42,481 nt of DNA from a virus (IMGVR_UViG_3300010148_000028:1-42481); one strand, 5' to 3'. Shown: positions 3,833 to 42,481, counted from the stretch's first letter. Numbers and translations are program-made. Notes: a model not told the origin generated them from the letters alone.

Positions 3833-3846
3833 AACAATTTTTTTAG

Positions 3847-3920
3847 TGAATCAGGAAGGATTCGAACCTTCGACCGTCGCCTTAGAAGGGCGATGCTCTA
3901 TCCAGCTGAGCTACTGATCC
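3847..3920 (-). tRNA. tRNA-Arg (anticodon UCU)
   Basis: A complete cloverleaf of 74 bases can be read on the minus strand. The acceptor arm is GGATCAG (3920-3914) with CTGATTC (3854-3848), containing one G-U pair, and the discriminator is A at 3847. The D-arm contains AGCTCAGCTGGATAGAGC, the anticodon stem-loop is CGCCCTTCTAAGGCG with anticodon TCT, and the T-arm contains GGTTCGAATCC. CCA is not encoded. UCU reads AGA and AGG, common Arg codons in this AT-rich genome, so the tRNA may relieve codon shortage in a host that uses AGA less. Confidence 0.97.
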
Positions 3921-4208: not shown

Positions 4209-4613
4209 TTAATTTTTTTTCACTTTAATGTGAATAATATCGTGAACTGCTGTATCTATTCTACGTAGACCATCATCATTGGTAAGTAAAATACAATCTC
4301 TGTAATTTTCCCAATCAAGTTGGTACGTAGTGTCAAGTATACCGTTATTTACTATTTCGATTGCTCTATTGAGAGCGTTAATGGTATAAAGGGTATTAGT
4401 GTGTTTCTTACGATGTAATGATATAGTTTGTTCAAGCTTTGTATTATCAATTGTTTTATCGATATTATAAGTACACATAAGATCAAAGGTATTATCTTTA
4501 TCTTCTAATACAAAAATTTTATTGTAAACGATATCATAAGTATCAACAATAGTATCAACCGTTTTTCTCAGCTTTCTTTGATTTGAAAAAGTGCATAATA
4601 ATTGAGTCTGCAT
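4209..4613 (-). CDS. Protein of unknown function
   Basis: This 134-residue soluble protein begins MQTQLLCTFSNQRKLRKTVD and alternates short charged and hydrophobic segments (DIVYNKIFVLEDKDNTFDLMCTYNID), suggesting an alpha/beta fold. The middle part resembles a helical segment (LYTINALNRAIEIVNNG) and the end is strand-like. Its ATG overlaps the stop of the 682-residue gene in a TAATG junction, so translation is coupled to it. No function is proposed. Confidence 0.7.
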   Translation of the reverse strand: MQTQLLCTFSNQRKLRKTVDTIVDTYDIVYNKIFVLEDKDNTFDLMCTYNIDKTIDNTKLEQTISLHRKKHTNTLYTINALNRAIEIVNNGILDTTYQLDWENYRDCILLTNDDGLRRIDTAVHDIIHIKVKKN

Positions 4614-8633: not shown

Positions 8634-11600
8634 TTATACTAAATTAATATTTGGATTTTCTTTATTTTTAGTATGTATTTTTCTACCGTAAAATTTTGAC
8701 GCTGTTTTTGCACTTTCACTCATCGATGGCATTTTCACGCCATTAACAGTCTTACCAATCATTTCAAGGTGTCCTGGGTCCCAACCAATATGAGTAGGTG
8801 AATATTTTTTCTTAGTATTTACTTTTGAAGCATCTGGATCATAATCACCATTTTTCTTATATTTATTTCCTTTCCAAGAAAAATCTCCACCCCATCTAAA
8901 TCCTTCCATTTTACCATATCTTGCTGCTTCTGCCCAAAACTTAAATGCTTGATCTTTTACAAACTTTTTACCTTTTTCAGCTATAGTCTTTTTATTATTA
9001 CCATATGAATAACGCTTATCTATAATATCCATAGCTTGTGAATTAGGTTCACCTTTTTCGTTAATTGCACAGTGATTACCGAATGTAACTTGTGATTTTC
9101 CAGATGAAGCTTTTTTAGCTTGAGATTTAAGAGATCTAAAACAAGTTACAATTTGAGGTTGCCATCCATCAGCTTTTAGTTTAGCTTCAACTCTTAACCA
9201 AGCTGCTGCAACAGTAGGATGAAGAGCATCTAAACTTTTATTATCTTTAGGACCATTAGCACCGCCAGATTTGAAAGTAGTTTTCTTTTTATATTCAGTA
9301 GGTGGTTGCTCTACAATTTTTGCTTCAGGCTTATTACCTGAATCACTTATCGGTCTCATTAATGTACCTATACTTGTTGACCAATCTTCTGGCGTAATAC
9401 TATGATCTACGGAAGTAATTTGTAAAGCAACAGTATCTCGATACCTATCAGGTAATATACCACCTTCACTGGTAGTCTTTATATGAATCGCATTACCCAT
9501 ATATATACCTGATATTCCATGTAAAGTTAATGATACGTCAATAGGAATAGGTGGCCTGTATGAACCAACGGTTTGAGTATCACCATGAATATATTTTCTT
9601 ACATATTGTTCAGCTATTCTTACACCTTCTTCGATAGGTTCAGTTTCGTCAGTTCCATTTAATTCAATCCTTCTAGTATCACCTAATAGGTTTCTATATG
9701 AATTTAATAATTTTTCTTCAGCAGCTTGTCTATCTTCTGCAGATCCAGTTGTATTACCTAATATTTTAATAGATGAGATAGATTTTAATCTATCAGATAT
9801 ACCTGCACCATACATTTGAAACATCTGTATCGATGAACCTTTTTCATTACCTGAGCCCATAGTACCGTAATATGCCATTGTAGCTAATTCATTAGGTATT
9901 TTAGATTGTATCTTAACATCTCTTAAAACATTATTAGTACCAGCTGCAGCAAATTTATAAATTTTATATCCGTTAACTTCCTGCATTCCTGTCCACCCAC
10001 TTGAATAATCATCAACAAATTCAGTTGGTGTGTAATTTTCATCAATTATACTTATTTGACCTAAAGCTGAATTAGTAAGCATTTTGAAACTCCATGGCTT
10101 ACCACATGCTGTATTTACTGCATCAAGAATCGTTAAACAAAATTTTCTAACATTTTCAGATTTTTCAGCTGATTCTAATACTAAATCTGCATTTATCATA
10201 ATGTTTCTTAAAATGCCACTATTAGTTGGAACATTAGGTAATCCGTTAGGACCAATTCCTATAAATTTATTAAAGCAATCTTCTCCTTTTAGATATTTAG
10301 AAGCTCCTGATAGACCCGCATCTAATAAATGTTCACCTCCACTTGCACCACCTGAACCATCTGCAGTAATAATCATAGCATCTAAAGTTTCTTGACCTGG
10401 AATATAACAAACAGTTGGATCTAGTGATCTTAATCCTGAGTGATTAACGATATGTACAGGCTTCCAAACTTCTCTATTTCTTGATTGAGGTGTAAGTAAT
10501 CCATCATCATCAAACTCGACACCAACTAATTTAGCAACATCAGGATCTAAAGACGCTTTTTCATTATCAGTCATTCTTGCACAAGATCTAAATAAAGTAT
10601 CAAGAGTTGTGTTATTATCATTTTCTTCGTTTTGTCCAGGCTTAACTGCTTTAGGCATATATAATTCGTTTATAATATAATCTTCTATAAATCTCCACGT
10701 TACATATGTATTACCATAAACTACAGAACCTACAGGTAATAAGTTAGCTGTCTTACCCATTACATAATCATAACCTAATTCTTCGGTTACATTTTCTCTT
10801 ACTTTACTATCAAGACCACCAATTCTAGGTGCATGTACAGGTTGATTGTTTGCATAAATTACTTTATGAAATTTACCACTTCCACTTAACCTTACAGGTT
10901 TTTTACCTGATTTGAAATCATCGCTGTTAACCCAAGAAAGCATTCCTAAATTTTGAGCTGTATTTGTTATCTCAGCATCAACTTTCATATTTTCATTTAA
11001 TTCATTTTCTCTATCATCTGCTTTTTGATTATCAATACCTTTAGCTTTAGCAACTAGATCAGCTACTAACTGTTCATCTGATTTTGCATTATCACCTTCA
11101 AAAGATGCAACCTCTTTATAATTACCATTATCATCTTTAGTATATACTGTTATACCTGTCTGTTGTTCAACTGCATACGGTCCATATTGTCCCCAATCAA
11201 CCTTTTGACCGGTTTCATCAAAATATGTTTTACCATCATCTGTACTTTTCCATCCATATTTTTTAGCTGCTGCATCTTTAGACATATACCCTTTTATATC
11301 TTCTGAAGAAGGTTTAACAGTACGTTGACCTAAAGGTATATCTTCCTGTCCAGGATCTTCCATTTTAGGTATTAATTTTTTAACGCCCCATGGATTAAAC
11401 CAATTTCTATAATTTAAGTAAAGGTTGTTACCTGATGTTGTATGATCAACTATACCACTAAATGTTATTACCCAAATAGTATAATGTTTTCCTAAAGTAG
11501 AACCTTTCTTACTTGGTTTAGGATCTCTTTTTATAAAAAAATCACCATCACGAAGTTGGTCTCCCCATTTCAACTCCATGTTAGCCATACCATTATCATT

Positions 11601-13247
11601 TGAACCACCAGACCATAAAAAATCACTAACCTTACTATTTTGAAATCTATCTTCTAAATAATCTAAATCAGGTTTTCCACCATTAGGTCTAGTAATTTTT
11701 GACATATCTACTATACCTTTTCTTGCGTCTGTTACATTAATTCCAGCTTTCCTTATATCATCAGCATACATACAATATGCAACACATTTATTCCACCAAG
11801 TTCTATCACCTTTAATTAATGTTGTTTTTTGACGTTTTCCTCCTTTGAACTCTCCTATAAAATATTCTTCTTTAGAAGAACTACCTGTTGATTCTTCAAA
11901 TTGTAAATCACCGTTTTGATCTTTAGTAATTTTAACATTATAAGCACTGGTATTTAATTTTTTAGGATTTACTTTAACTGTTATACCAGATTCACCACCA
12001 CCATCTATTGCTACATCTTGTTCACCAGCTGGATCACCAAGTTCAATTTTACCTATATTATTCTTTGATTGTTTAGAAGCATTATCTTCAGCTGGTGCAG
12101 CTTCAACAGCTCTACTTTCTTTTTTAATTAAAGAAACTATAGTTCTTACATCTGAAACTTGGATTTTTTTGCCTTCAACCTCCATTTCACCACCACAATC
12201 AAAACTTACAGTAGGAATACCGGTCGCTAATGAGCCAGGTGATACAACATCAACTCTACAATCATATCCACCAGCACCATCATTAGTCCAATTAAATTTG
12301 GTTACTACACCTAAAAGTCCATCGTAAATACCTGCATCAGGTCCAGTTGGGTCAGTTATTACCGCGTTTGCTTGCTCTTCTAAATTATATAAAGGTCTTG
12401 CATCGCCTGGGAGTCCTTTAGTAATACCATATGACTTTCTTAATATTTCAGTATTTATAAGATTAGTATTACTTAAAGTACTACCATCTGTTATTAGTTC
12501 AACATTTATAGGATCAATATATTTTGTAGGATGAAACCATCCCCATTCTACAAGTACAGATATACCAGGAATCATATACATCATTTCTATAGCTTCTAGA
12601 TCATCAGTATTAAAAACTTTTATATCGAAAGAAGCTCTTCTAATAGTTCCTAAGTCACCTTTATTACTTACATTTAATGCTAAAATGCCGGGCACTGGAC
12701 TTGATTTCATTCCAAGTACATCTTGCCCTCTCCAACCTTGCGCTGTTGATCTATATAAAGAATGCCCGGAATTACCAATACCTGCAACATTACCAGCACT
12801 ATGACGGACACCAATATCTTCATTAAAATTATTTGCTTTCCAATCAGCTGCACTACCATAAGGTCTACCTGCTACCCATTGTCTACCGCCTGCGTCACCT
12901 GAAACGCTTGAATCAGTTCCAGCTTCTCCACTTTCAACCGTTTGATACCCACCACCGTGATTAATTCCTTTACCACCCCAGATTATCCAATCTCTCCAAT
13001 CAGGTACTTCAGGAACATTATATATTGATACATTAGGATTAGCTAAAAAAGTTGTTTGTGGTATCGCAAATGGACAAACTCTTATCCACGGTGTTCTCTC
13101 TTGAAAGTATCTAAAAGCAGCTGTTTGATCAAGATCAGTCATTGCTTGATTAGGACCTCTAAAAGTTAAAGCATTAGTATCAGCATCTAACCGTCTTACT
13201 ATTAACGGGTGCATAGCATCAAGAAATATTCCTCTGAACCCTGACAT
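8634..13247 (-). CDS. Baseplate hub / tail-associated cell wall hydrolase
   Basis: This 1537-residue protein is the largest in the window. The first 380 residues look like a hub domain; PGISVLVEWGWFHP (227-240) is its most telling segment. Around 480-620 a Cys488 in WWNKCVAYC, a GDFF motif and a His588 in GKHYTIWVI resemble a CHAP or NlpC/P60 hydrolase. The C-terminal part (about 1340-1500) is an M15-type peptidase: FGNHCAI (His1392) with SQAMDI (Asp1407), then WDPGHLEM (His1493, Glu1495), the usual zinc ligands and catalytic Glu. T4 has gp27 plus gp5 with lysozyme here; this protein seems to merge hub and wall-cutting functions. It follows the LysM/gp53-like gene by one base. The M15 call is strong, hub good, CHAP tentative. 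Confidence 0.85.
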   Translation of the reverse strand: MSGFRGIFLDAMHPLIVRRLDADTNALTFRGPNQAMTDLDQTAAFRYFQERTPWIRVCPFAIPQTTFLANPNVSIYNVPEVPDWRDWIIWGGKGINHGGGYQTVESGEAGTDSSVSGDAGGRQWVAGRPYGSAADWKANNFNEDIGVRHSAGNVAGIGNSGHSLYRSTAQGWRGQDVLGMKSSPVPGILALNVSNKGDLGTIRRASFDIKVFNTDDLEAIEMMYMIPGISVLVEWGWFHPTKYIDPINVELITDGSTLSNTNLINTEILRKSYGITKGLPGDARPLYNLEEQANAVITDPTGPDAGIYDGLLGVVTKFNWTNDGAGGYDCRVDVVSPGSLATGIPTVSFDCGGEMEVEGKKIQVSDVRTIVSLIKKESRAVEAAPAEDNASKQSKNNIGKIELGDPAGEQDVAIDGGGESGITVKVNPKKLNTSAYNVKITKDQNGDLQFEESTGSSSKEEYFIGEFKGGKRQKTTLIKGDRTWWNKCVAYCMYADDIRKAGINVTDARKGIVDMSKITRPNGGKPDLDYLEDRFQNSKVSDFLWSGGSNDNGMANMELKWGDQLRDGDFFIKRDPKPSKKGSTLGKHYTIWVITFSGIVDHTTSGNNLYLNYRNWFNPWGVKKLIPKMEDPGQEDIPLGQRTVKPSSEDIKGYMSKDAAAKKYGWKSTDDGKTYFDETGQKVDWGQYGPYAVEQQTGITVYTKDDNGNYKEVASFEGDNAKSDEQLVADLVAKAKGIDNQKADDRENELNENMKVDAEITNTAQNLGMLSWVNSDDFKSGKKPVRLSGSGKFHKVIYANNQPVHAPRIGGLDSKVRENVTEELGYDYVMGKTANLLPVGSVVYGNTYVTWRFIEDYIINELYMPKAVKPGQNEENDNNTTLDTLFRSCARMTDNEKASLDPDVAKLVGVEFDDDGLLTPQSRNREVWKPVHIVNHSGLRSLDPTVCYIPGQETLDAMIITADGSGGASGGEHLLDAGLSGASKYLKGEDCFNKFIGIGPNGLPNVPTNSGILRNIMINADLVLESAEKSENVRKFCLTILDAVNTACGKPWSFKMLTNSALGQISIIDENYTPTEFVDDYSSGWTGMQEVNGYKIYKFAAAGTNNVLRDVKIQSKIPNELATMAYYGTMGSGNEKGSSIQMFQMYGAGISDRLKSISSIKILGNTTGSAEDRQAAEEKLLNSYRNLLGDTRRIELNGTDETEPIEEGVRIAEQYVRKYIHGDTQTVGSYRPPIPIDVSLTLHGISGIYMGNAIHIKTTSEGGILPDRYRDTVALQITSVDHSITPEDWSTSIGTLMRPISDSGNKPEAKIVEQPPTEYKKKTTFKSGGANGPKDNKSLDALHPTVAAAWLRVEAKLKADGWQPQIVTCFRSLKSQAKKASSGKSQVTFGNHCAINEKGEPNSQAMDIIDKRYSYGNNKKTIAEKGKKFVKDQAFKFWAEAARYGKMEGFRWGGDFSWKGNKYKKNGDYDPDASKVNTKKKYSPTHIGWDPGHLEMIGKTVNGVKMPSMSESAKTASKFYGRKIHTKNKENPNINLV

Positions 13248-24386: not shown

Positions 24387-25928
24387 TTAGCTGATTGTTA
24401 CAGCAACTTTTCCGTAGAATTCTGGTCTTACAACTTTCTTCGCGTATCTAGTCATTACACCTTTTCTTGGAGTAAAGTTAGTTGGGTCATACACTAGAGG
24501 AGTCATAATTAATGGAATATATGGAGCATAAACAGCACCAGTTTCCAAGAATTGATTACCTCTGAATCCCATTAAGATACCATCAGATGTAGCTCTGTAA
24601 GGGTTTTTGTAGATAGTATATCTATTTGCAAAAGCACCTACTTTAGTTACACCAGCAGCGAACTGAGTAGCAGTTCCATCTGTATCAGCTGTGAATCCAG
24701 GAATAGATTCGATAATAGCAGCAATCTCTGGCGACATTACAGCAAAGTTAGCTCCACCTCTCATAGTTAATTTATGAATAGAGTTAGAAACTTTTTGCAT
24801 TTCGTAGCCTAAAGTTTGTGCCCATGTTCCTAGGTCGTATCTTGCAGTTGCATTAGTTACACCAGAAGGAGCATATCCATTAGCAGCAGTGTTAAGTTCA
24901 AAAGAACCAGCATTAGCTGTTACAGTACCAGCAGCTCTATCTAACATTGCTAAAATTTCCATATCGATTTCCATCGAGATGTACTCTGATAACATTGAAG
25001 TTAATTCTGCTTCTGCATCAATTGAATGATAAGCATTCAAGTCTTGAGCAAATTCAGGTGACCAAACAACTTTTAGTTTTCTAGTCTTTGCAACAAGAGC
25101 TTCTTGCTTTAATTGAACATTCATTTCTGGAATACCGATATCATCAGAACCATCAGAAACTGAACCAGCAGGTGTAGCATTTGAATCTTCAAAGTCACCT
25201 CTGTTAGCAGCAACAAGTGTATTCTTGTAATAATTTACAGTTAATACGTCTGTAGCAAGTAATTCTTCAGAAGCTTTGAATGTAATCGTTGTACCATTAG
25301 TAGTAGTAGCTCCTTGAGTTGATACTACAGTATTACTTGATCCTGAAGTTAAGAAGAATGCATCAGCAATATCTAGATCAGCTTCAGAAGCTGAAGCGAT
25401 TGGAATTGCAAATGTAGCAGCAGCATTAACAGTACCGCCTGTATCACCAGCTAATAAAGCTTGTGTTACTTTCTTCAATGAGTAAGCATCTTTACCAGTA
25501 CCATAAAGTCCACCTGTTGGTGAAGATGATGATGAAGTATTACCCATTACATCAGTACCTTGTGTTTGGTTTCCACCTACTGTTGTTCCATATTTGAAAT
25601 CTAACCAGAATACTAGTCCTGATGGTAGGTTCATTGGTTGTACACTAACGAATTCTTTTGCAAAGATTTCGCCGAAAATACGTCTAACTAATGGTAAAGC
25701 AACACCGTTCCACTCTTCTGAGCTAGCACCACCAATTTTAGAGTTTTCAGTTACAAGTTCTCTTGCCTGATTTTCTAATAAGATTGCAGTGTTATGCTTT
25801 TCGTAATCGTGATCGATTCCTTCAAGTAATCCAGTCTTTTCCCATTTAGATACGTATTTTTTTGTCTCATTCAACTGTTGTCTATAAGTTGATTGAGCAT
25901 CGTTTAATAAATTTGAAATGTTTGACAT
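24387..25928 (-). CDS. 23: Major capsid protein gp23
   Basis: This 513-residue protein is near T4 gp23 in length (521). The N-terminal about 65 residues are helical and charged, like the gp21-removed propeptide. Then follow NGVALPLVRRIFGEIFAKEFVSVQPM and LPSGLVFWLDFKYG, a standard gp23 core segment, with RKLKVVWSPEFAQDLNAYH, the helix MEIDMEILAMLDRA, and at the end GVMTRYAKKVVRPEFYGKVAV, also typical. It is preceded by the scaffold gp22 gene (37-base gap) as in T4, has an AGGAG ribosome site, and is followed by the strongest terminator in the window. Codon use is less AT-extreme than neighbours, as expected for an abundant product. Confidence 0.96.
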   Translation of the reverse strand: MSNISNLLNDAQSTYRQQLNETKKYVSKWEKTGLLEGIDHDYEKHNTAILLENQARELVTENSKIGGASSEEWNGVALPLVRRIFGEIFAKEFVSVQPMNLPSGLVFWLDFKYGTTVGGNQTQGTDVMGNTSSSSSPTGGLYGTGKDAYSLKKVTQALLAGDTGGTVNAAATFAIPIASASEADLDIADAFFLTSGSSNTVVSTQGATTTNGTTITFKASEELLATDVLTVNYYKNTLVAANRGDFEDSNATPAGSVSDGSDDIGIPEMNVQLKQEALVAKTRKLKVVWSPEFAQDLNAYHSIDAEAELTSMLSEYISMEIDMEILAMLDRAAGTVTANAGSFELNTAANGYAPSGVTNATARYDLGTWAQTLGYEMQKVSNSIHKLTMRGGANFAVMSPEIAAIIESIPGFTADTDGTATQFAAGVTKVGAFANRYTIYKNPYRATSDGILMGFRGNQFLETGAVYAPYIPLIMTPLVYDPTNFTPRKGVMTRYAKKVVRPEFYGKVAVTIS

Positions 25929-28922: not shown

Positions 28923-29618
28923 TTATCCTCCTATTCTAGAATATGTTAACATATCATTCATTGCTTTAAGTGCTTTTTTCTTTGCACTATCAAATTCTTT
29001 ACCATATCTACCTGAACCACCACCTTTTTTCAAACCAGAAAGAGCCATGTAAACTTTCTTAATGTTTTCAGCTTCTTTACTTGTTTTCATTTTAGGTGCA
29101 GCTTCAGCAATTTTAGTTAGTTTAGTTTCGTTTTTAATCGCTTTAGTAATAGCAGCTCTTTTCTTTGCTAGATACTCATCAGACTCATCCTCATCACCAT
29201 CGTTATCGATATCACCATCTTCTTTACCAACAGCATCCATAGCTTCTGATATATCATAGTACTTGCCTAATTTGTGACCAATATCTTCGAATACTGATTC
29301 AAGCCTTTGTTGAAGAGTAGATAGTTCAGTAGCAGCTTTTTCAAATAATTTAGCAGATTTATTTACTTCAGACATATCTCTTTTTACAGTAACAGCATCA
29401 AACCAATCACCTGTTTCTTGTAAAGCAAGATTAGAAGCTCCTTTAGTCATGCTTTTAATCGCTTCTACCATATCTTTAATTTCATTAGTTTTATATACTT
29501 TAGCACCGTAATCGTTAAATTTAGATACAGCATTCATAACATCTCTTTTTTCTTCTTTAGTAAGAGATCTATTGAATGATTCTTTTTTGCTTTCTTTTAA
29601 TATATTTTTTAATTTCAT
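28923..29618 (-). CDS. Unknown head-region protein with calcium-loop-like motif
   Basis: This 231-residue protein has three visible parts. The N-terminus MKLKNILKES is a capsid-targeting-like segment ending in Glu-Ser. A helical middle follows (about residues 20-125). Then DGDIDNDGDEDESDEYL (134-150) with Asp at every second position, like EF-hand or dockerin calcium loops, leads into a basic helix (AKKRAAITKAIKNE). The end is Gly-rich and basic. The role is unknown; packaged internal protein or scaffold component are the main options given its place between gp21 and gp22. The ribosome site is GGAG. Confidence 0.7.
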   Translation of the reverse strand: MKLKNILKESKKESFNRSLTKEEKRDVMNAVSKFNDYGAKVYKTNEIKDMVEAIKSMTKGASNLALQETGDWFDAVTVKRDMSEVNKSAKLFEKAATELSTLQQRLESVFEDIGHKLGKYYDISEAMDAVGKEDGDIDNDGDEDESDEYLAKKRAAITKAIKNETKLTKIAEAAPKMKTSKEAENIKKVYMALSGLKKGGGSGRYGKEFDSAKKKALKAMNDMLTYSRIGG

Positions 29619-29975: not shown

Positions 29976-30605
29976 TTAGTTATCTCCAGGTAATGAACAT
30001 TTGCAAGTTAAGTCGCAAAGCATTTCACTAATAATAGTATTTACTTTGAAAAATTTATCTTTTTTAATTTTACTGCCAACTGATTCATTCATAGGCTTCA
30101 TGAAAGCTCCATGTGTTGATGGATTTGAAACGAAATCCCAGCATACTAATTCAAAATCATTTTGTACTGCAACAGTATCTTCACTAATTTGTTTTACTGA
30201 ACCAAGTCCTCTAGATGATATACCAAGTTTAATACCTGATCTTAATAGCTCTTTAAGTATATTACCTGATGGTGTTGAAAGAACTTCAACTTTACCCATT
30301 ACATCATCTCCGTTCCACCATACATCTAATATATTATGAGAAGCGTTAGCTAAATTAACTACAGAAGTATCAGGATGATCTAATTCACCTAAAGCTCTTC
30401 TTTCAGATATTTGAACTTTTTTATATTCGTTTACTTCTCTCATTAGAATATCTTTTGGGTATACTCTTCCGTTTTGATTTTTCGCACCAGCACGTTGCAA
30501 CACACCTGACACAATAACTCTACCATTATTCTGTTGTTCAGATTCAATAATCATTTGTGGTGATATATCAAATGGTGTATAATCTATAAGTAATGTTTTA
30601 CTCAT
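29976..30605 (-). CDS. 21: Prohead core protease gp21
   Basis: This 209-residue serine protease cleaves scaffold and capsid proteins as the head matures. Seen: NNGRVIVSGVLQRAGAKNQNGRVYP near residues 26-50 (split), catalytic His77 in GELDHPDT, and the nucleophile region SGIKLGISSRGLGS (123-136), Ser130 or Ser131, all standard for T4 gp21. I place the start at the ATG 30603-30605, preceded by GGGAGAG and overlapping the stop of a 41-residue gene in an ATGA junction, rather than at the in-frame GTG five codons upstream. The size is like T4 gp21 (212). Confidence 0.95.
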   Translation of the reverse strand: MSKTLLIDYTPFDISPQMIIESEQQNNGRVIVSGVLQRAGAKNQNGRVYPKDILMREVNEYKKVQISERRALGELDHPDTSVVNLANASHNILDVWWNGDDVMGKVEVLSTPSGNILKELLRSGIKLGISSRGLGSVKQISEDTVAVQNDFELVCWDFVSNPSTHGAFMKPMNESVGSKIKKDKFFKVNTIISEMLCDLTCKCSLPGDN

Positions 30606-30727
30606 CCTAATCTCTCCCACGTGCTACGTTTTCGGTATAAATCGAAAAATATACGAGCAAGTTCGGTGCGAATAATTTTTCGCATTTCTTCGATAGTAAT
30701 ATTTTCATTAATAATATCTTTGCTCAT
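30602..30727 (-). CDS. Tiny 41-residue gene before gp21
   Basis: An open frame from ATG 30725-30727 to TGA 30602-30604 encodes 41 residues: MSKDIINENITIEEMRKII, then RTELARIFFDLYRKRSTWER and LG. Its ATG follows the upstream stop directly (TAAATG) and its stop overlaps the gp21 ATG (ATGA), so it is tightly coupled on both sides, which argues it is real. It is helical and charged. T4 has the small core proteins 67 and 68 between genes 20 and 21; this may play the part of one of them, though no sequence match is claimed. Confidence 0.7.
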   Translation of the reverse strand: MSKDIINENITIEEMRKIIRTELARIFFDLYRKRSTWERLG

Positions 30728-32053: not shown

Positions 32054-32061
32054 ATAAATAT
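32054..32061 (-). promoter_or_regulatory. Recurring ATATTTAT element after portal gene
   Basis: The sense strand reads GATATTTATATAAGCAT, overlapping the last base of the portal stop codon, 33 bases before the next ATG. It contains TTGATA with a plausible GTATAT 17 bases on, so it could also be read as a sigma70-type site. Confidence 0.42.
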
Positions 32062-33830
32062 CAACTTGTTTGCAAAGAATCATCATCTATCAAATTATTT
32101 TCACTTAATAATGATGGTTTTTTGTTTTTGTCTATACTTTTAAGTAAAGAGTCGATATTCTCTCTATATGTATGTTTTATGCTTCTATCTCTATTCTTAA
32201 TATCTCTTATACGCGTGCCATTTCCTGTAGGATCTGAACCTCTAACATGATCTTGTGTCCCGTATTTAGTACCTTCAGGTGGTCTTCCAACAGGATTAAT
32301 TGATGATTCAGTTGGTTCATCATCATCTGGCTGTATTTTTGGATCAGCAGCTGGATCTTCACCTTCGTCTTCAATTTTAGTTTTTCTAAATGCTTGCTTA
32401 ACATCTTCAATAACACTCGCTCTTTCTTTTTCAATTTCTTGATCTGACATATTAAAGATATTTTTATATACCCAATCTTCAGACATCATTTTACCATCTT
32501 TCATATCTCTAGCAAGATCAACTTTTTCTTTCCAAAGTGATATCTTTTCTTGTTGGTAAATAGTTGAAGAGTTAGTTAATCCTAAACTAAAATCAACTAA
32601 TTTTTCATCAGTATATCCCTGTGAGTATAGATGTACTATAGCAATTTTAGTAAGTTCAGAAGTTACTATTCTTTGTATACGTTCTATAGTTCTTGCAAAT
32701 CTCACATCTTCAGCAGCTAGTGTAGCTTTACCTTCAGTTGTTTCATCATATCCTAAAAATGCTTTTGGTATTTTTAACCCTGCAAATATTTTATTTTTTA
32801 GGTAATCGACATCTTCAATACCACCAAATTCCATGCCTGATAATGAATCTATTTCAGTACCTGATTGACCTCCTCTTACAGGTAAGTAAAAATCTTCTAG
32901 CATATTTTGCATATTAAACTTAAGATTATATTCACCAGTTGTTTGATCTATATAAGGAGTTTTTTTCATTTTATCGATAACTTGTCTCATATAGTTATCA
33001 ACTTCATTAGGAGGTATATTACCTATATCTATCTTAAATACTCTCTTTTCAGGTGCACGCATAATTCTATGAATCATCATAGCATCTTCCATAAGAGTTA
33101 ATTGTTTCCAAACTTTTCTAGCACCTTCAAGCATTGATTTACCATAAGGTAAAAAGTTAGTATCAGACAATAATCTAAAGTGAGCTACTTCATAGTTTTC
33201 AAAATCTTTTCTAGTTGTTTGACCTCCACTAGATGATTGACCAGCTAATGAAATATCATGCACAAATTTAACATACTCAGGTTTAGCAGGGTCGGTACCT
33301 TCTTCTCTTACCATTTCATAAGTTGAAATTGGTTGTGCATTTGTTACACCTAATTTTTCTGTAATATCTAACTTTAAGTAAAAGTCACCATACTTACACA
33401 TATTACGTATCCAAGGCCATAGATTAAATTCAATATTAAGTACATCATAGAATAAATTATGTAATATTTTTTCAATATCTTGATCTTTACAATTTATACT
33501 TAATACTTGATCGAATTCATTTTTTATAGTGGATTCATCAGCATAAATATCTAATGCTGAAGAAATAATAGAATCATCATCCATCGATTCATAGTCAGTA
33601 AATAAATTTAATCTTTGTACTTGATAATTTTGATATTGATTATATGTTAAATTACTTAATGAGCCGTGTAGTTTAGTATATCTATCTATGAGTCTATTAG
33701 TTGCTAATCCACTATTAGATTGAACTTTATTTACATCAATAACCTTTAATTTATTTGTTCCAACTCTACGTACTACTGCATTAGTTGAAAATAATGTTTG
33801 CAGTCTTCCAAAAAAAGTCTTATCTGCCAT
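32061..33830 (-). CDS. 20: Portal protein gp20
   Basis: This 589-residue protein forms the ring through which DNA enters the head. Typical gp20 parts seen: SIISSALDIYADESTIKNEF, FYLKLDITEKLGV, a central helix with MIHRIMRAPEKRVFKIDIGNIP, YLKNKIFAGLKIPKAFLGYDE (about residues 350-370) and a late helix with VEIT-like acidic patches. T4 gp20 is 524 residues; the extra C-terminal tail here (from about 505) is Pro/Asp-rich and low complexity (EDEGEDPAADPKIQPDDDEP). It follows gp17 by 12 bases, with an AAGGAG ribosome site. Confidence 0.94.
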   Translation of the reverse strand: MADKTFFGRLQTLFSTNAVVRRVGTNKLKVIDVNKVQSNSGLATNRLIDRYTKLHGSLSNLTYNQYQNYQVQRLNLFTDYESMDDDSIISSALDIYADESTIKNEFDQVLSINCKDQDIEKILHNLFYDVLNIEFNLWPWIRNMCKYGDFYLKLDITEKLGVTNAQPISTYEMVREEGTDPAKPEYVKFVHDISLAGQSSSGGQTTRKDFENYEVAHFRLLSDTNFLPYGKSMLEGARKVWKQLTLMEDAMMIHRIMRAPEKRVFKIDIGNIPPNEVDNYMRQVIDKMKKTPYIDQTTGEYNLKFNMQNMLEDFYLPVRGGQSGTEIDSLSGMEFGGIEDVDYLKNKIFAGLKIPKAFLGYDETTEGKATLAAEDVRFARTIERIQRIVTSELTKIAIVHLYSQGYTDEKLVDFSLGLTNSSTIYQQEKISLWKEKVDLARDMKDGKMMSEDWVYKNIFNMSDQEIEKERASVIEDVKQAFRKTKIEDEGEDPAADPKIQPDDDEPTESSINPVGRPPEGTKYGTQDHVRGSDPTGNGTRIRDIKNRDRSIKHTYRENIDSLLKSIDKNKKPSLLSENNLIDDDSLQTS

Positions 33831-33842
33831 TTTTTATACTCC

Positions 33843-35423
33843 TTATAATAACCATGTTAAATCTTCTTTGTTGTTTCCTAAATTCATATTCCATGAATCG
33901 TCAGGATCAGCTTTTTGCGTGTAAACTCCATTGTATGATGTATTTGTTCCCATCAATCCTATAGCTCTTTTATTAAGTTCTAATCCTTCGTTTCTTAATT
34001 TCAAAGCTGTATCACGAATATACATAGCAATAGAGAATGCCATTACTAAATCATCGTTATACCCAGATTGTGCTTCCGGTCTAGACCCTCTCCAAACGAA
34101 AACAAACAGTTCGTCAATAAGTCTAGTCGAACGCACAACACACGCTTTTTCTCTAAAATAAATATCTAGCTTTGATATCAAAAGTGGTCTAGTCCTAGCA
34201 GATGTTGTAAAACCTGGTACCATTTGTGATTTATCTTTCATATCATAGCCTTTTTTAAGCTGAACTTCAGGATCAACAACACCATCGTGTTTATATGTAT
34301 AATATAAATTTCTATAACCTCTATCTATTGCAGGTTGTAAAGCTGCCCATCCTATATTAGCGTTCTCAACTACTAATAATGCTTCATTATATTCAGTAGC
34401 AACATTTACTAACATATTACCAAACTCTTTAACACCTATTTGACCTTTATATTCAGCTACTTGAGTAACTGACTCAATATCAATAACATGAAAGGTAGAG
34501 TAGTCTGCACCATCACCTCTTGCAACGTCTGCTACAACAACATAATCTTTTGTATAATTAGGATATTCCCATACCCAGTATGAATTATCATGACCTCGTT
34601 TTTCGACAGGATCTTGACACATATTAGTTTTATACCATTCTAATAAAGGACCAGGTATAACTGAATTACCAGATGAAATAAAATCACAATCACATTCTTG
34701 AGCTGCTTGATCAGTACCTAGAATTACATCTTGTTCATCTCTCCATGTTTGATTACGTTCAGGATGCACTGTCCAGTGTAATCTAATAGTACTAAATTTA
34801 TTTTCGCCGTTTTCAGCTTTTACCCATTCTTTATGAAACCAATTACCTACTCCATTAGGTGTTGATAACGCAATACATCTACCACCGGTAGCAAGAGTTT
34901 GTTGTGCTGAAGTCCATATTTCATCAATACCATCAATAAATGCTGCCTCATCAATAACTAGCAAAGATAGTGCTTCAGATCTACCAGCATCGGGAGATGA
35001 AGAAACTGCTTTACATTGAGACCCATTTTTTAATCTTAATGATAATTTATTATCTTCTAAAACTTGTCCTCTTAACCAGCTAGGTAAATTTTCATGCATT
35101 ACACGTATTTTAGTTACAAGATTTTTTGCTGTATCTTGTTTAATTGCAATAACTAATGCGTTAAAGTCAGCATTAAATATCATACCCCATAGAGTGTATC
35201 CCGCTGTAAGAGTAGATATACCTAATTGACGTGATTTAAGAATAATATTATAATCATGATCTTTGAACTGCGTAAGAGCTTTTTCTTGAAATGGATATAA
35301 ATCAAAATTTATTTTACCCCGGGTTGGGTGTTGAATTTTACAATACTTCCTCATAAAGTGTACAGGATCTTTTGCGCACTTTATATACTCTAATTGTATT
35401 ATTTGTTTTATATCTTTAGCCAT
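33843..35423 (-). CDS. 17: Terminase large subunit gp17
   Basis: This 526-residue protein packages DNA. ATPase: DLYPFQEKAL adenine-binding Q motif, Walker A-like SRQLGIST (64-71), Walker B LLVIDEAAF (154-162) and coupling motif ALSTPNG (185-191). Nuclease (RNase H fold): VVVADVARGDGADYSTF (295-311) and a late GYNDDLVMAFSIA with its acidic pair. T4 gp17 is 610 residues. No small terminase (gp16) is recognised nearby. The ATG at 35421-35423 follows an ATATTTAT element with no visible ribosome site, a possible leaderless start. Confidence 0.95.
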   Translation of the reverse strand: MAKDIKQIIQLEYIKCAKDPVHFMRKYCKIQHPTRGKINFDLYPFQEKALTQFKDHDYNIILKSRQLGISTLTAGYTLWGMIFNADFNALVIAIKQDTAKNLVTKIRVMHENLPSWLRGQVLEDNKLSLRLKNGSQCKAVSSSPDAGRSEALSLLVIDEAAFIDGIDEIWTSAQQTLATGGRCIALSTPNGVGNWFHKEWVKAENGENKFSTIRLHWTVHPERNQTWRDEQDVILGTDQAAQECDCDFISSGNSVIPGPLLEWYKTNMCQDPVEKRGHDNSYWVWEYPNYTKDYVVVADVARGDGADYSTFHVIDIESVTQVAEYKGQIGVKEFGNMLVNVATEYNEALLVVENANIGWAALQPAIDRGYRNLYYTYKHDGVVDPEVQLKKGYDMKDKSQMVPGFTTSARTRPLLISKLDIYFREKACVVRSTRLIDELFVFVWRGSRPEAQSGYNDDLVMAFSIAMYIRDTALKLRNEGLELNKRAIGLMGTNTSYNGVYTQKADPDDSWNMNLGNNKEDLTWLL

Positions 35424-37380: not shown

Positions 37381-39783
37381 TTAAAACGTCATCATACCTG
37401 CAATTTGATTTATAGGACCAAATGCACCTGTAAGTTTATATGTTTTACCTTTATATATAAATACTAATCCTTCAGATGGTATTACAGCTTTCCATCCACC
37501 AATAGAATTTAATTTATTTAATTGTTGACCCATTCTATTTAATTTTTTAATATCACCGCCTTTACGAACATCACTAATAGCTTTTGATACTTGCTTCTTT
37601 ATATTCTGTATAGCTTTGTCTGGATTTACTGCTAAAAAGTTTTCTACGTTTTTAAGAACTTCAACGCCTAACTCAAAAAATAATAATTCAAAAGGTTTCA
37701 TAGTATCTTGTACTGCACCTTTATGCTTTTGTTTATCGAATTCAATTATTTTTTCTCTTAATTTTTGATCTTCAATATTTTTAGCATTTAGTCTAAATGA
37801 TTTATCGAAAAAGGCCCAGCGTTTTACTAATCCCATTTTAATTCTATTTTCTAAACCTTTGAAGTTTTTATCAATATAATTATCCCACCAAGCTTGATGA
37901 TAGTCAGCGAACATATTTGAATCTTTCATATTATATGGTGACATAAGTTTTTGTAATTTCTTAGTAAAGTAAGGTATTTTTTCACCAAAGTTTTGAACTG
38001 GCTTTACTTTTAGTACATGGGGTCCTATTATACTAAAACTCTTTTGAATATTAGCATCAACTTGTTTAATCATGCCTGCTAATATTCTTGCACCATCTTT
38101 TACTGTACCTACAGGAGCGCCTTTTTCGTATCTTAATACACCATGAAATTGTAATTTAGGTGCATCATAAACTATAACGTTAGAAGATTGAGGATACATT
38201 ATCTCCATATTCATCCAGTTGTTACCATCGTTAAATATTTTTAATTTTTGTTTCTCTGATAGTCTAGATATAGCTTTACTTAAATCTCTAAATGCATATG
38301 TAAATGCTTTTTCTATATTACCTCTACCTTTCCATTTAGCAGCAAAGGTTTTAGCATCCATTCCACCTCTCTTAATATCACCATTATTTCTAGCAGCTTT
38401 TAATTCAGTATCCCATGTAATAAATAAATTTTGACCATCAGTTTTTTCAGTTGCTGCTGATTCAAGATTAAGTTTACCTTGAAGAGCAATATTAATCATT
38501 TGTTTGAAATCACCAAAGGTTAGTTTTTTATCATCAAAAGGGTGAGACATATGTCCGTAAGCACCACCTTCTAATATTAAACCTTCATTCATTAGTCTAA
38601 ATTTTAATAATGGTCTGCCGTTTATTAAAATATCACCTTTTTCATTCTTAGAGATAGTTTTTACTACTATTTTTTTATTCTTGAATTTACCACCTAATAC
38701 AGTATCACCTATTTCGATAGGAATTTTAATTTCTTCGTTAGTTGGTATTTTTACTTCTTTATTAGGTTCTGGATGTTTAGTAGATTCATCAGCTCCTAGA
38801 TAATTTAATAATTCATAGCCTAGTGATTTAGCTAATTTATCTTTTTCTGCTTTCCATTTTCTATAAGCTGTAATATTTGGATATTCTTTTGGAGCAACTG
38901 TAGTAGTTTTACCTGCAACACCAGAAGGAAAGTTAGATGGCTGCCTTGTGTTTGAATATCTAGATGGTTCTTTTAATAATTCACTGTCTCCTGAAAGATA
39001 ATTTATAACTTGCATACCAAACTTTTTTGCAATACTATCAGTAGATTGTTTATAATGTCTTTGAGTTTGATACCATGTTTGAGGACCATCATCTACATTT
39101 CCACCTGCTACATTACTATTTTCTTTTATTATTTTTTCAACTCTTCCTGAAGCAATAAAATTTAGTATAGATTCATTAACACCTAACTTTTTGGTAATAA
39201 GATTATAATTTTTCATATGTCCAAAAATATGTTTGAATAATTGAGCTCGTGATTTGCTATCTATAGCTTTAGCACCTAACGCCTGTCTTATTGCCGTACC
39301 TGACATTTCTCCGTAACCTGGTACTTTCAAACTAACATGAGGAGCAATTAAAGTGTATGCACCCTCTTTATATCCCACTTCTGCTTTTCCTTTCCAAGGC
39401 CTAAAAAATTTGCCTCCTAACCGTTGTGCATCTTTAGCACCAATCATAAATACAGCAGCTGTTGTTTTTGGATCATATTTTTTTAACAGTTCAACGGCTT
39501 GATAAGGATTTTTAACTTTTATAACGTTTCGTATTCCGTGTGAGTTTATAATTTTTTTCTTTTCATTAAATGAAAAAGGAGATTTAGGAAGGTCTACTTT
39601 ATCAGATGTTACAACCCATGCGTCTTTGAATTTGGATTTCAACCATTTATAAGTTTCAGCATGATGTTTACCCATAGGCTGAAATCTTCCAGGGTAGATA
39701 GCAACTATATTTTTTATAGTTGTTTTCTCTTCTGATATTATTTGATCAGCTAACCAAGTTCCTAAATTTTGTTCTCTATTCAT
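37381..39783 (-). CDS. Fusion of HIGH-type nucleotidyltransferase and ligase-like domain
   Basis: This 800-residue protein joins two nucleotidyl-transfer folds. Residues 20-200 form a cytidylyltransferase/NMN adenylyltransferase-type domain: VAIYPGRFQPMGKHH (27-41, the HxGH-type motif) and EMSGTAIRQALG (159-170, the ISSTxxR-type motif). Residues about 400-720 hold a DNA/RNA ligase-like domain: EKTDGQN (446-452, the KxDG lysine nucleotidylation motif), AARNNG (464-468) and NMEIMYP (525-531). A linker carries two related repeats (236-276 and 300-340) and LILE/G, a gp21-like site. It could charge and transfer nucleotides in NAD or nucleic-acid repair. The ATG directly follows an ATATTTAT element without a ribosome site. 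Confidence 0.8.
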   Translation of the reverse strand: MNREQNLGTWLADQIISEEKTTIKNIVAIYPGRFQPMGKHHAETYKWLKSKFKDAWVVTSDKVDLPKSPFSFNEKKKIINSHGIRNVIKVKNPYQAVELLKKYDPKTTAAVFMIGAKDAQRLGGKFFRPWKGKAEVGYKEGAYTLIAPHVSLKVPGYGEMSGTAIRQALGAKAIDSKSRAQLFKHIFGHMKNYNLITKKLGVNESILNFIASGRVEKIIKENSNVAGGNVDDGPQTWYQTQRHYKQSTDSIAKKFGMQVINYLSGDSELLKEPSRYSNTRQPSNFPSGVAGKTTTVAPKEYPNITAYRKWKAEKDKLAKSLGYELLNYLGADESTKHPEPNKEVKIPTNEEIKIPIEIGDTVLGGKFKNKKIVVKTISKNEKGDILINGRPLLKFRLMNEGLILEGGAYGHMSHPFDDKKLTFGDFKQMINIALQGKLNLESAATEKTDGQNLFITWDTELKAARNNGDIKRGGMDAKTFAAKWKGRGNIEKAFTYAFRDLSKAISRLSEKQKLKIFNDGNNWMNMEIMYPQSSNVIVYDAPKLQFHGVLRYEKGAPVGTVKDGARILAGMIKQVDANIQKSFSIIGPHVLKVKPVQNFGEKIPYFTKKLQKLMSPYNMKDSNMFADYHQAWWDNYIDKNFKGLENRIKMGLVKRWAFFDKSFRLNAKNIEDQKLREKIIEFDKQKHKGAVQDTMKPFELLFFELGVEVLKNVENFLAVNPDKAIQNIKKQVSKAISDVRKGGDIKKLNRMGQQLNKLNSIGGWKAVIPSEGLVFIYKGKTYKLTGAFGPINQIAGMMTF

Positions 39784-39825: not shown

Positions 39826-42481
39826 CTAAAGTAATTCATACGAGTAAGCTAGTCCTTTTATAGTTACACCGTTAGGAACATCTGCAGTCATTAAAACGCG
39901 ATTACCTGTACCTTCGGTATTAATTAATTTTCCTGCTTCTGTTTTAGATAATAATGTAAGTCCTAGACGTTTATAGCCTGCTTTTGGTGGACATACAACA
40001 GATGCAATTCCCGTCTTTACCGAGTCCATGGTACCGCAAAATGGAGGAATGCTAGGTACTTCTAATCTATATGTTGCTGCCCCTCCTACTAGAGCACATC
40101 CGTTTACTTTAGTTCCAGGTGGTATTGGCCAAGAATGTGTTACTTGTATTGTACCAGCTGAAACATTTTTTAATGAGCCTGATATGAATTCAACATCTGT
40201 CATATCTACAGGAGTTAATTCATTTCCAGAAAATCCAACATATACTGAATCTCCTTGTCCTCCACCTAATACTGCATTAAGGCTGTTTTTATCAGTACCG
40301 TACATAAAGGTTCCTGCAGAAGCTCCTATAACTAATGCACCAGTACCAGCTCCGTCATCAACTCTTATATTTGCTTGTTTACCAATAAACTCGAGCTCAG
40401 GAACTGTATCTAAATGTAATTGTGCACGAAGAGAGTTGCTGCCGAGAAACTGTATATCATCGCCATCAACATCAATTTTATAATCACCAGAAATATCTAG
40501 CAAATGATTACCGTCAACAGTTATTGTAGGAACGGTACCGGTAGTTATAGTAAGTTTATCAGAAGATCCATCGGAAAAGAATATATCTTCCCCACTTGCA
40601 GCTAACCTTATATCTGTACCAGTTTTAATAGCTAGAGAATCCGAAGATACAATTTGACTATTATCAATAGTTATATTACCTGTTTTATTGCTAATAGATT
40701 CTACTCTAGCTAAAGATCCAGTGGTAGTACTTGAACCTGAAATATTTGTTGAATCAGTTGCTATTATATCACCAGCTACTTGTATTCCAGTATTAGTTGT
40801 TTCAAACTTTTTTACATTATTATAATAAAGATTTACTTCTCCATTACCTTCAAAAGTTGCCATGTTTTCGTCAGCCGGTGATATAATGTTTACACCAGCT
40901 CCACCTTTAATATTCAATCTTCCTGTACCAGAATCATGTATATATGAATTAGCCCCATCGTGGAATATTTTCAAATCTTGTGAGTTTCCAAAAGATATTG
41001 TTCTATTATCGTCCATTTGAATTGCTTCAAATGTTCCTGTTCCACTTGCACTTATATCTCCTGAAGCTGTTATATTACCATCTTCGTCAATTGCAAATAT
41101 TTCACTACTATTTACACCCGGTACAGTTGTTGAGTTTATTGCATTGTAAATACTGAAAGAACCAGAATGTCCAGCTTCTAACGCATTTATTATAAAAGAA
41201 ACGCCATTGTCTGATACTATTGCAGGTTCTTTTGCAATTTCAGTTCCTACATCAACACCACCATGAAACTTAATTGTATTTACATGTCCTGGTATAGAAA
41301 TTGTATTTTGTTGTATACTAGTATATACACCTCTTAATGGATCGCCTGCTCTTACTAATGCCGCGTTTAGATTACCACTTGCACTTACATTACCATCAAT
41401 ATTTACAGGGGCATCAATAAATTCGTGAGAACCATTTGCTCGATAATAATTTTTTTCTTTAGAAGTACCAAATACCACACCCTTATTAGTATCACTAATA
41501 CTTCGATAGTTAACAGCTTGCACATAACCTTTTCCTGCGCCTGCTGCACTTTGTGATTCTACATAAATACCAGCAGATGTACTTATTTCTCCTTCGAAGT
41601 CACTGCGACCTCCAACTACTAAAGTTTCGCCTGCTGTTATATTTGCTATTTTAATATTTGATTCTGCGGTTTTATCTGCAGTTTTTACAGTAAGTCCGTT
41701 GGTAGGGTCAAATACTAGATTACCTTCAACTGCTTTCGTTGAAGCATTTCTAAATTCAATAGTATCACCATCAGTAATAATATGATTAAATGAGCCGGTA
41801 GTAAATATTAAACTTGTTCCTGGAGTACTAGAGCTTATACTTCCTGTAATTACTAGATCACCTGACATTGAAATAGAACCGCTCATAATAGTAACGTCTG
41901 AACCTTTAGATTTTATTGCACCGTCTACTATAAGTATTCTTTTTCTACAATTCCATCTTAATGCTGGATTTGTTTTTACAGTTTCACATGCTGTAGGGTC
42001 ATTATCATCATCTACAAAGGTAATAAATCTTTCTGCGTTTGCATCACAAGTTATAGTTTTAACTTTATCAGAACAATCAGCATTTGTGGCGTTAGTTGCA
42101 TTAGTTACATTATTAATAGTTCTTGTAAATGTTGTTCCATCATATAAAGTAAGTGTTACATTATTACCAGTACCTGTATTCATTGATTTAACAATATTAG
42201 AGCCTGATATTACTCCACTTGCACTTATGTTACCTGAAGCAGTTACATTACCAGTTACTTTGAATCGACCGTTATTGAAATGTACTATATCTTGTTTTAT
42301 TTCTAATTTTTGCGTTCCACCTACATACATTTCTATTTCATCAGAAGTTCCTCCATTGTGAATATATGTATTTCCTGCAGGTGTAAGACCAGCTGAATCA
42401 TTTCCATCTAAAATTAGTTTTTGACCTTCGTTTATTACAATATCACCGGATGCTGATATATTATTACCAATTATATTTCCA
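39826..42481 (-). CDS. Large repetitive virion protein (tail-fibre-like), 5' end outside window
   Basis: The frame stays open to the high-coordinate edge of the window, so the true start lies beyond it; about 884 residues are visible. It is Ser/Gly/Asn/Thr-rich with many short repeats of the type NxxASGxISASG and GSxxxTGS, plus QDLKIFHDGANSYIHDSGTG (about 1.3 kb from the end), all typical of large fibre or adhesin-like proteins of marine T4-like phages that form beta-helices or trimers. The C-terminus is Cys- and Pro-containing with WPIPPGTKVNGCALVGG and FCGTMDS, a likely tip or chaperone domain. Role in host recognition is inferred. Confidence 0.8.
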   Translation of the reverse strand, partial: GNIIGNNISASGDIVINEGQKLILDGNDSAGLTPAGNTYIHNGGTSDEIEMYVGGTQKLEIKQDIVHFNNGRFKVTGNVTASGNISASGVISGSNIVKSMNTGTGNNVTLTLYDGTTFTRTINNVTNATNATNADCSDKVKTITCDANAERFITFVDDDNDPTACETVKTNPALRWNCRKRILIVDGAIKSKGSDVTIMSGSISMSGDLVITGSISSSTPGTSLIFTTGSFNHIITDGDTIEFRNASTKAVEGNLVFDPTNGLTVKTADKTAESNIKIANITAGETLVVGGRSDFEGEISTSAGIYVESQSAAGAGKGYVQAVNYRSISDTNKGVVFGTSKEKNYYRANGSHEFIDAPVNIDGNVSASGNLNAALVRAGDPLRGVYTSIQQNTISIPGHVNTIKFHGGVDVGTEIAKEPAIVSDNGVSFIINALEAGHSGSFSIYNAINSTTVPGVNSSEIFAIDEDGNITASGDISASGTGTFEAIQMDDNRTISFGNSQDLKIFHDGANSYIHDSGTGRLNIKGGAGVNIISPADENMATFEGNGEVNLYYNNVKKFETTNTGIQVAGDIIATDSTNISGSSTTTGSLARVESISNKTGNITIDNSQIVSSDSLAIKTGTDIRLAASGEDIFFSDGSSDKLTITTGTVPTITVDGNHLLDISGDYKIDVDGDDIQFLGSNSLRAQLHLDTVPELEFIGKQANIRVDDGAGTGALVIGASAGTFMYGTDKNSLNAVLGGGQGDSVYVGFSGNELTPVDMTDVEFISGSLKNVSAGTIQVTHSWPIPPGTKVNGCALVGGAATYRLEVPSIPPFCGTMDSVKTGIASVVCPPKAGYKRLGLTLLSKTEAGKLINTEGTGNRVLMTADVPNGVTIKGLAYSYELL

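Follow-up and report, generated by a model that had tools for sequence, protein, structure and literature searches.

Does the 800-amino-acid gene at positions 37381-39783 of this virus fragment encode one protein whose two enzyme activities are coupled, or a precursor that is taken apart into separate enzymes? The fragment, whose full 42,481 bases we call the window, comes from a marine T4-like phage. A preliminary description had proposed that a single protein here fuses a nucleotidyltransferase to a ligase and may couple cofactor production or nucleotide activation to end-joining. A single long reading frame does exist, on the minus strand, opening with an ATG at 39783 and closing with a stop codon at 37381, and the plus strand of the same interval is riddled with stops. 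The gene sits within a late-gene block, and tail sheath, tail tube, PhoH and UvsX are among the other genes of the block and window. The genes that matter most here are listed below; in this and later sequence motifs, a slash marks a predicted or known cut position.

37381..39783, minus strand: polyprotein-like gene of 800 amino acids (leader, nucleotidyltransferase, linker, RNA-ligase-like domain), from the reading frame and its relatives
29976..30620, minus strand: T4 gp21-like head maturation (prohead) protease, predicted to do the cutting (phrog_207, E 2.9e-57)
24387..25928, minus strand: major capsid protein, with its own maturation site VTE61/N62 (ELVTE/NSKIGG) (phrog_138 and alignment with relatives)
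32061-33830: portal
33843-35423: terminase
39826-42330: upstream neighbour, tail-fibre-like (phrog_8745, phrog_13518)

The window also holds one tRNA-Arg (TCT) gene (3846-3920, minus strand) and two minus-strand reading frames with no Pfam or PHROG match, of 1537 (8634-13247) and 682 (4613-6661) amino acids.

The nucleotidyltransferase and RNA-ligase-like domains

Both enzyme-like regions of the protein, with the residues that define the second, are located as follows.

39121..39729, minus strand: HIGH-superfamily nucleotidyltransferase domain (GRFQPMGKHH, SGTAIR), residues 19-221, from Pfam PF01467 and VIA
37384..38568, minus strand: RNA-ligase-type nucleotidyltransferase domain, residues 406-800, in which a helical insertion separates motif IIIa from motif IV, from the model, VIA, Foldseek and invariant motifs
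38443..38445, minus strand: K447, predicted adenylated lysine of motif I (KTDG), invariant
38389..38391, minus strand: R465 (AARNN), invariant
38203..38205, minus strand: E527, motif III (MEIMYP), invariant
37471..37473, minus strand: E771, motif IV (EGLVF), invariant
37435..37437, minus strand: K783, motif V (YKLTG), invariant

All of the motifs named in the preliminary description are present, namely GRFQPMGKHH (residues 32-41), MSGTAIR (160-166), KTDG (447-450), AARNN (463-467) and MEIMYP (526-531), and the set lies far above chance expectation. Two further ligase motifs, absent from that description, follow downstream: EGLVF (771-775, motif IV) and YKLTG (782-786, motif V).

For the N-terminal region, the nucleotidyltransferase assignment made earlier holds. 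Pfam CTP_transf_like (PF01467) matches residues 29-122 above its cutoff (E 1.3e-4), and when the whole protein is modeled, residues ~24-204 align to NadD, PPAT/CoaD and NMNAT structures with VIA Z scores of 10-11.7. As modeled, residues ~24-204 adopt a HIGH-superfamily nucleotidyltransferase (NadD/CoaD/NMNAT-like) fold, and NadD, CoaD and NMNAT are matched about equally. The name NMNAT could not be taken from profiles, as the NCBIfam NMNAT models match far below cutoff, and a sequence search of the PDB returned weak PPAT matches only and no ligase. Residues S161, G162, T163 and R166 of the SGTxxR motif are invariant. The HIGH motif takes the form GxHH in most members, including this protein, and the canonical form (HSGH or TQGH) in a few; because GxHH replaces [H/T]xGH, nucleotidyltransferase activity is not assured and could be reduced or altered. 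Its most likely product is NAD+ or a related dinucleotide.

The C-terminal region, modeled alone (pLDDT 77, pTM 0.67), gives RNA ligases as its top structural matches: VIA Z is 7.7 for NgrRnl of Naegleria, 7.5 for fungal Trl1, 7.1 for T4 Rnl1 and 6.8-6.4 for T4 Rnl2, followed by other ligases and one capping enzyme. The top ~43 rows are covalent nucleotidyltransferases throughout (Z 7.7-4.8, 150-204 residues aligned), and the first Foldseek rows are mostly RNA ligases, with a best E of 4e-3 and probability of 0.97 to Rnl1. Z scores below 8 would by themselves be weak, but the consistency of the match list together with the motif set makes the fold convincing. Residues E446, K447, D449, G450, R465, E527, H547, E771, G772, K783 and L784 are invariant in 39 diverse sequences with identity down to 42%. 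On the model, then, residues 406-800 form an RNA-ligase-type covalent nucleotidyltransferase, with moderate fold scores. The earlier ligase assignment is upheld on the two points by which it was to be judged: KTDG lies inside the predicted nucleotidyltransferase fold, and Lys447 is conserved in every one of the 39 homologs. The PDB search found no sequence match to solved ligases, and no C-terminal domain of the Rnl1 or Rnl2 type was identified. DNA ligases, considered as a model for DNA end-joining, score below the RNA ligases, mostly at Z ~4.6-6.2 and at best 6.7, versus 7-7.7. End-joining by this domain is possible, with RNA a likelier substrate than DNA.

Domain boundaries, linker and internal starts

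In T4, the prohead protease gp21 cuts at L/I-X-E, and short N-terminal sequences target head proteins to the head before gp21 removes them (PMC9026906). Examples, with cut marks set by this published rule, are MKTYQEFIAE/A (ipII and ipIII), MAKINELLRE/S (gp24) and FLTE/AEIGG (gp23). Sites of the same form mark the end of the leader and both domain boundaries of the present protein.

39730..39783, minus strand: N-terminal amphipathic leader MNREQNLGTWLADQIISE, residues 1-18, predicted capsid-targeting, with a predicted cut after E18
39121..39123, minus strand: E221, predicted P1 Glu of junction II (IIKE/NSNVAGG), resembling the major capsid protein site
38569..38571, minus strand: E405, predicted P1 Glu of junction III (LILE/GGAYGHM)
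38569..39120, minus strand: variable linker with a VDDGP motif, residues 222-405, the insertion point for other enzyme modules in relatives
38593..38730, minus strand: small mobile module (GDTVLGGKFKNKKIVVKTISKNEKGDILINGRPLLKFR), residues 352-397, missing from many relatives

Conservation at these sites was counted in 48 non-redundant relatives. At the leader end, E18 is kept in 45/46 and a P3 [ILVF] in 45/46; at junction II, E221 in 48/48 and P3 [IL] in 45/45; at junction III, E405 in 48/48 and P3 [LI] in 48/48. P2 is variable at all three, and the sites sit in poorly conserved segments. Across the linker the model is of low confidence at residues 217-245, 259-307, 322-353 and 394-413. Junction II is strikingly similar in sequence to the capsid maturation site: it reads IIKE/NSNVAGG here and IIKE/ASNTQPG in relatives, compared with LVTE/NSKIGG in the window's major capsid protein, which corresponds in place to FLTE/AEIGG of T4 gp23, and QLI[DSQK]E/A[SN]xT in capsid proteins encoded on the same contigs as relatives of the gene. 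By resemblance, the E18, E221 and E405 sites fit the gp21 rule, and the leader looks like that of a T4-type internal head protein. The leader, helical over residues 7-20 in the model and ending IISE18, nevertheless differs in sequence from the T4 10-mer, and its P1' residue (E19) is less typical than A, G or S. The pattern [LIVF][LIVFM]xE within the first 22 residues occurs in 7 of 40 window reading frames versus 3.8 expected, so that the leader motif by itself is weak evidence.

Five other minus-strand reading frames near the capsid genes (25966, 27558, 27976, 28923 and 36146) begin with residues like T4 capsid-targeting leaders, such as MKLKNILKE/S and MIKLKQILKE/F; they are candidate internal head proteins, although the enrichment is weak. 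One of them (28923-29618, minus strand) carries the motif EDGDIDNDGDEDESDEYLAKKRAAITKAI, very similar to a stretch of the S-SCSM1 virion protein ORF92, and this stretch links the reading frame to a 'cytidyltransferase' PHROG.

The whole protein has 122 relatives in IMG/VR, 77 of them long and aligned here, and a ligase-profile scan places the ligase domain at at least 545 loci. The preliminary description had suggested searching for the same domain order, and the pairing does recur: among the reading frames examined, 125 contain both domains, and the order is nucleotidyltransferase then ligase in nearly all viral contigs and the reverse in three loci (L269, L271 and L273). Reading frames with the ligase alone nearly all start at a contig edge. 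The Microcystis phage Mel-JY01 has a 639-residue version that reads IIAE/GGLGGHM at the site, and several UniProt homologs are named 'Cytidyltransferase-like'. In one relative (L061:257-2617) a break near residue 617, in the ligase domain, splits the gene into two reading frames.

The linker ranges from about 115 to nearly 1000 amino acids across relatives, some of which carry a polyA-polymerase/CCA-adding head (E 1.5e-29), an ATP-dependent Zn-protease domain or ParB-like segments within it, and 14 reading frames place a PNK/zeta-like P-loop kinase ahead of the nucleotidyltransferase. The mobile module of ~45 residues (consensus GDTxxxGKFKNKxVVVKTIxxNEKGDxLINGR) also turns up in HTVC008M, as part of a small gene of its own (AGE60462), and elsewhere in the polyproteins. 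An [LIVMF]xE motif comes directly before it in 32 of 39 instances, compared with a background of ~5%. The family thus combines at least two domains of disparate activity in one polypeptide, as polyvalent proteins do.

Several individual relatives extend this picture. A 1909-residue precursor (L267:510-6236) joins the CCA-adding/polyA-polymerase head (E 1.5e-29) and a ParB-like segment to the nucleotidyltransferase and RNA ligase. Judged by eye, segments inserted in the linkers of L097 (3361-7221) and L108 (2136-6914) resemble an ART/DarT-type domain (IYHYTDKKGLAGILKSNSI) and a metallopeptidase (VLHEIDHARDL), respectively, neither with a Pfam match. In L047, L036, L017, L026 and ~20 other loci, an unfused PNK/zeta-like kinase gene stops where the polyprotein gene begins or shortly ahead of it, and has a leader of its own, MIKLxDILNE/GVYDPGIFKAVF (MIKLxDILNE/G). 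The HTVC008M kinase matches a polynucleotide-kinase PHROG; in the window, no kinase gene was seen adjoining the polyprotein gene.

At junction III, 22 other relatives have Met in place of Glu, in a frame that stays open from upstream. In 19 of the 22 (which are not independent of one another), AAGGAG precedes this Met at Shine-Dalgarno distance, typically as GGAAAGGAGTTATTATTAATG GGT GGA, whereas codon usage would predict AAG GAG in about 6.5% of sequences. The combination of AAGGAG and Met is a specific sequence pattern, and internal translation in this subgroup would yield the same GGAYGHM-type ligase N terminus. More distant homologs begin MNKTLLTE/GGVAGHLAH (L271) or M/GGVAGGMAH (L273). 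Taken with the Met variants, these starts suggest that a free GG... end of the ligase is reached in three ways: by a cut, by an internal start and by the gene's own start.

Possible fates of the protein

We think it probable that the gene encodes a head-packaged precursor, cut by the prohead protease to release an NMNAT-like enzyme and an RNA ligase, rather than a stable bifunctional enzyme. Three observations led to this reading: the recurrence of [L/I]-x-E at segment ends, the unconfident structure of the linker and the use of the linker as a slot for modules. The 18-residue N-terminal helix would serve as a T4-like capsid-targeting sequence that brings the precursor into the prohead core, where the gp21-like protease would cut after E18, E221 and E405 by the same rule as on the major capsid protein. 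Cutting would free a nucleotidyltransferase of ~200 residues, a linker piece and a 395-residue RNA ligase starting GGAYGHM. The mature enzymes would pass into the host together with the DNA and go to work as infection begins, the ligase adenylating K447 and sealing RNA broken by host defences or nucleases, and the nucleotidyltransferase most simply making NAD+. Beyond the predicted folds, motif residues, conserved sites, modularity, internal-start variant and recurrent pairing, which the analysis shows, we infer packaging, cutting and injection, with RNA as the ligase substrate and NMN as the nucleotidyltransferase substrate; injection with the DNA is suggested by the leader, the sites and virion mass spectrometry of relatives. 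The kinase and CCA-adding modules of relatives point to a role in RNA repair, a process important in phage-host conflict (reviewed in PMC7824862).

The coupling proposed in the preliminary description is where that account fares less well: its two domain assignments stand, but the boundary sites, variable linker, flipped order and internal start tell against physical coupling. In a true bifunctional enzyme, the nucleotidyltransferase would regenerate NAD+, or supply some other activated nucleotide, for use by the ligase attached to it, and infected cells would contain the two domains as one polypeptide. The pairing is ancient and has kept recurring (128 nucleotidyltransferase-ligase reading frames, plus the reverse order in L269, L271 and L273), which could mean that both enzymes must stay together, and an adjacent gene for a KWDG protein, possibly ligase-like, precedes the nucleotidyltransferase gene in S-WAM1 and S-SZBM1, both families also meeting in PHROG 455. 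Yet a conserved cut-type Glu stands at both domain boundaries, the linker can be as short as ~115 or as long as nearly 1000 residues and can hold unrelated enzymes, internal starts would uncouple the ligase and cyanophages keep the two as separate genes; we therefore regard a lasting fusion as unlikely. We find it less likely still that the [L/I]xE sites are structural, with LLxEGGAYGHM simply opening the ligase fold as its first strand or turn, the leader being an ordinary helix, and with no cutting at all. GGAYGHM does belong to the conserved ligase domain, and the adjoining conservation could be partly structural, but residues 394-413 are of low confidence in the model, Glu alone is exchanged for a Shine-Dalgarno-preceded Met in a whole subgroup and L273 begins M-GG without LxE. 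The motif moreover recurs at the leader, at junction II in unrelated sequence and before the mobile module (32/39 versus ~5%).

T4 RNA ligase 1 doubles as a catalyst of tail-fibre attachment. The present protein might likewise be a late-acting cytoplasmic enzyme or assembly catalyst of the kind exemplified by T4 Rnl1 (gp63), and its late gene block, its tail-fibre-like neighbor (39826-42330; phrog_8745, phrog_13518) and several BFVD matches that bear the name of tail-fibre attachment catalyst are in keeping with this. Such a role would, however, leave the nucleotidyltransferase, the leader, the cut sites and the inserted kinase and CCA modules unexplained, and possibly related cyanophage genes adjoin primase and MazG rather than tail-fibre genes, so we consider it very improbable.

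Extending the precursor reading beyond this locus, we see about an even chance that marine T4-like phages use in-head polyproteins, with a leader and prohead-protease cuts or with internal re-initiation, to deliver swappable RNA-repair and nucleotide enzymes (PNK-like kinase, CCA-adding enzyme, RNA ligase and NMNAT-like enzyme) as the DNA enters. If this is true, tailed phages, like RNA viruses, make polyproteins that a protease cuts during assembly, loading swappable enzyme kits into heads. It would account for the repeated appearance of NMNAT-like enzymes in cyanophage virions and would place a predicted RNA ligase at the outset of infection, the stage at which anticodon nucleases and NAD-depleting defences operate. 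The cut sites would then also offer a handle for detecting further injected proteins in marine phages, among which the family is common (at least 545 loci).

Relation to known systems

The preliminary description knew of no enzyme with this pairing. As far as sequences go, that is partly wrong, given the 'Cytidyltransferase-like' UniProt homologs and PHROG 455, whose function is unassigned there and which has regions matching both a KWDG protein and a cytidylyltransferase; a functional description was not found in the papers searched. In S-WAM1 and S-SZBM1 the KWDG protein gene lies directly 5' of the cytidylyltransferase gene, and the KWDG gene occurs in 471 phage records, a related cytidylyltransferase in 532. 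Homology of our ligase domain to this cyanophage KWDG family was considered and set aside (hhalign gave only a 34-column match, probability 1.8%); the two do have similar motif I, IV and V patterns, and the KWDG family may account for some of the BFVD matches.

Injected polyvalent proteins (PMC5512222), T4 capsid targeting and virion NMNATs are already established. Searches of the open-licence literature yielded no prohead-protease sites at every enzyme boundary, no RNA ligase in a polyvalent-type protein and no internal-start variant, and nothing on this fusion or on prohead-protease-cut phage polyproteins beyond surveys of polyvalent proteins and of NAD and RNA repair.

NMNAT-like proteins were detected by mass spectrometry in S-SCSM1 and S-SZBM1 virions and are reported for S-CBWM1 and S-CREM2 (PMC10665884), although the authors of one virion study warn that enzymes of this sort might have been carried along as contaminants in CsCl preparations (PMC10665884). 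These cyanophage virion NMNATs or cytidylyltransferases (S-SCSM1 ORF91, S-SZBM1_140 and S-CREM2 ORF154) are likewise HIGH nucleotidyltransferases of T4-like marine phages. Those of S-SCSM1 and S-SZBM1 begin MKSFLQFLKE/A and MRFRQFIIE/A, close to MKTYQEFIAE/A of T4 ipIII, so that their leaders end FLKE/A and FIIE/A, the type seen in our protein. They differ in being separate genes, beside a KWDG protein in S-SZBM1 and S-WAM1, with no polyprotein described. The S-SCSM1 virion protein encoded beside the NMNAT, ORF90, was checked as a ligase and is not one, and S-SZBM1_141 (KWDG), the ligase-like partner, was not found among the S-SZBM1 virion proteins in the text searched.

NadM-Nudix and NadR, found in KVP40-like and other phages, are NMNAT fusions with two functions. 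They likewise join a HIGH nucleotidyltransferase to a second nucleotide enzyme, but that partner is a Nudix domain or a ribosylnicotinamide kinase, whereas here it has an RNA-ligase fold. T4 Rnl1, NgrRnl and Trl1 share with our ligase domain a common fold and the motif set KxDG, R, E (III), EG (IV) and K (V); our domain differs in that a long helical stretch is inserted between motif IIIa and motif IV, and it has no detectable sequence match to solved ligases.

Polyvalent proteins (Iyer et al. 2017, PMC5512222) are similarly large and mix kinases, ParB-like domains, Pol-beta nucleotidyltransferases and peptidases, and they too are predicted to be injected. In the portions of that account drawn on here, any processing is assigned to built-in metallopeptidases, whereas our boundaries carry prohead-protease-type sites together with a leader; RNA ligases are discussed there but not listed as parts, and HIGH nucleotidyltransferases do not appear in those portions. 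T4 Alt and IPI-III (PMC9026906) offer the other half of the likeness, with a short leader ending [LI]xE, a gp21-type protease and early-acting cargo. Each T4 internal protein, however, is a single protein from which only the ends are removed, whereas the precursor proposed here would be cut at internal sites to yield several enzymes.
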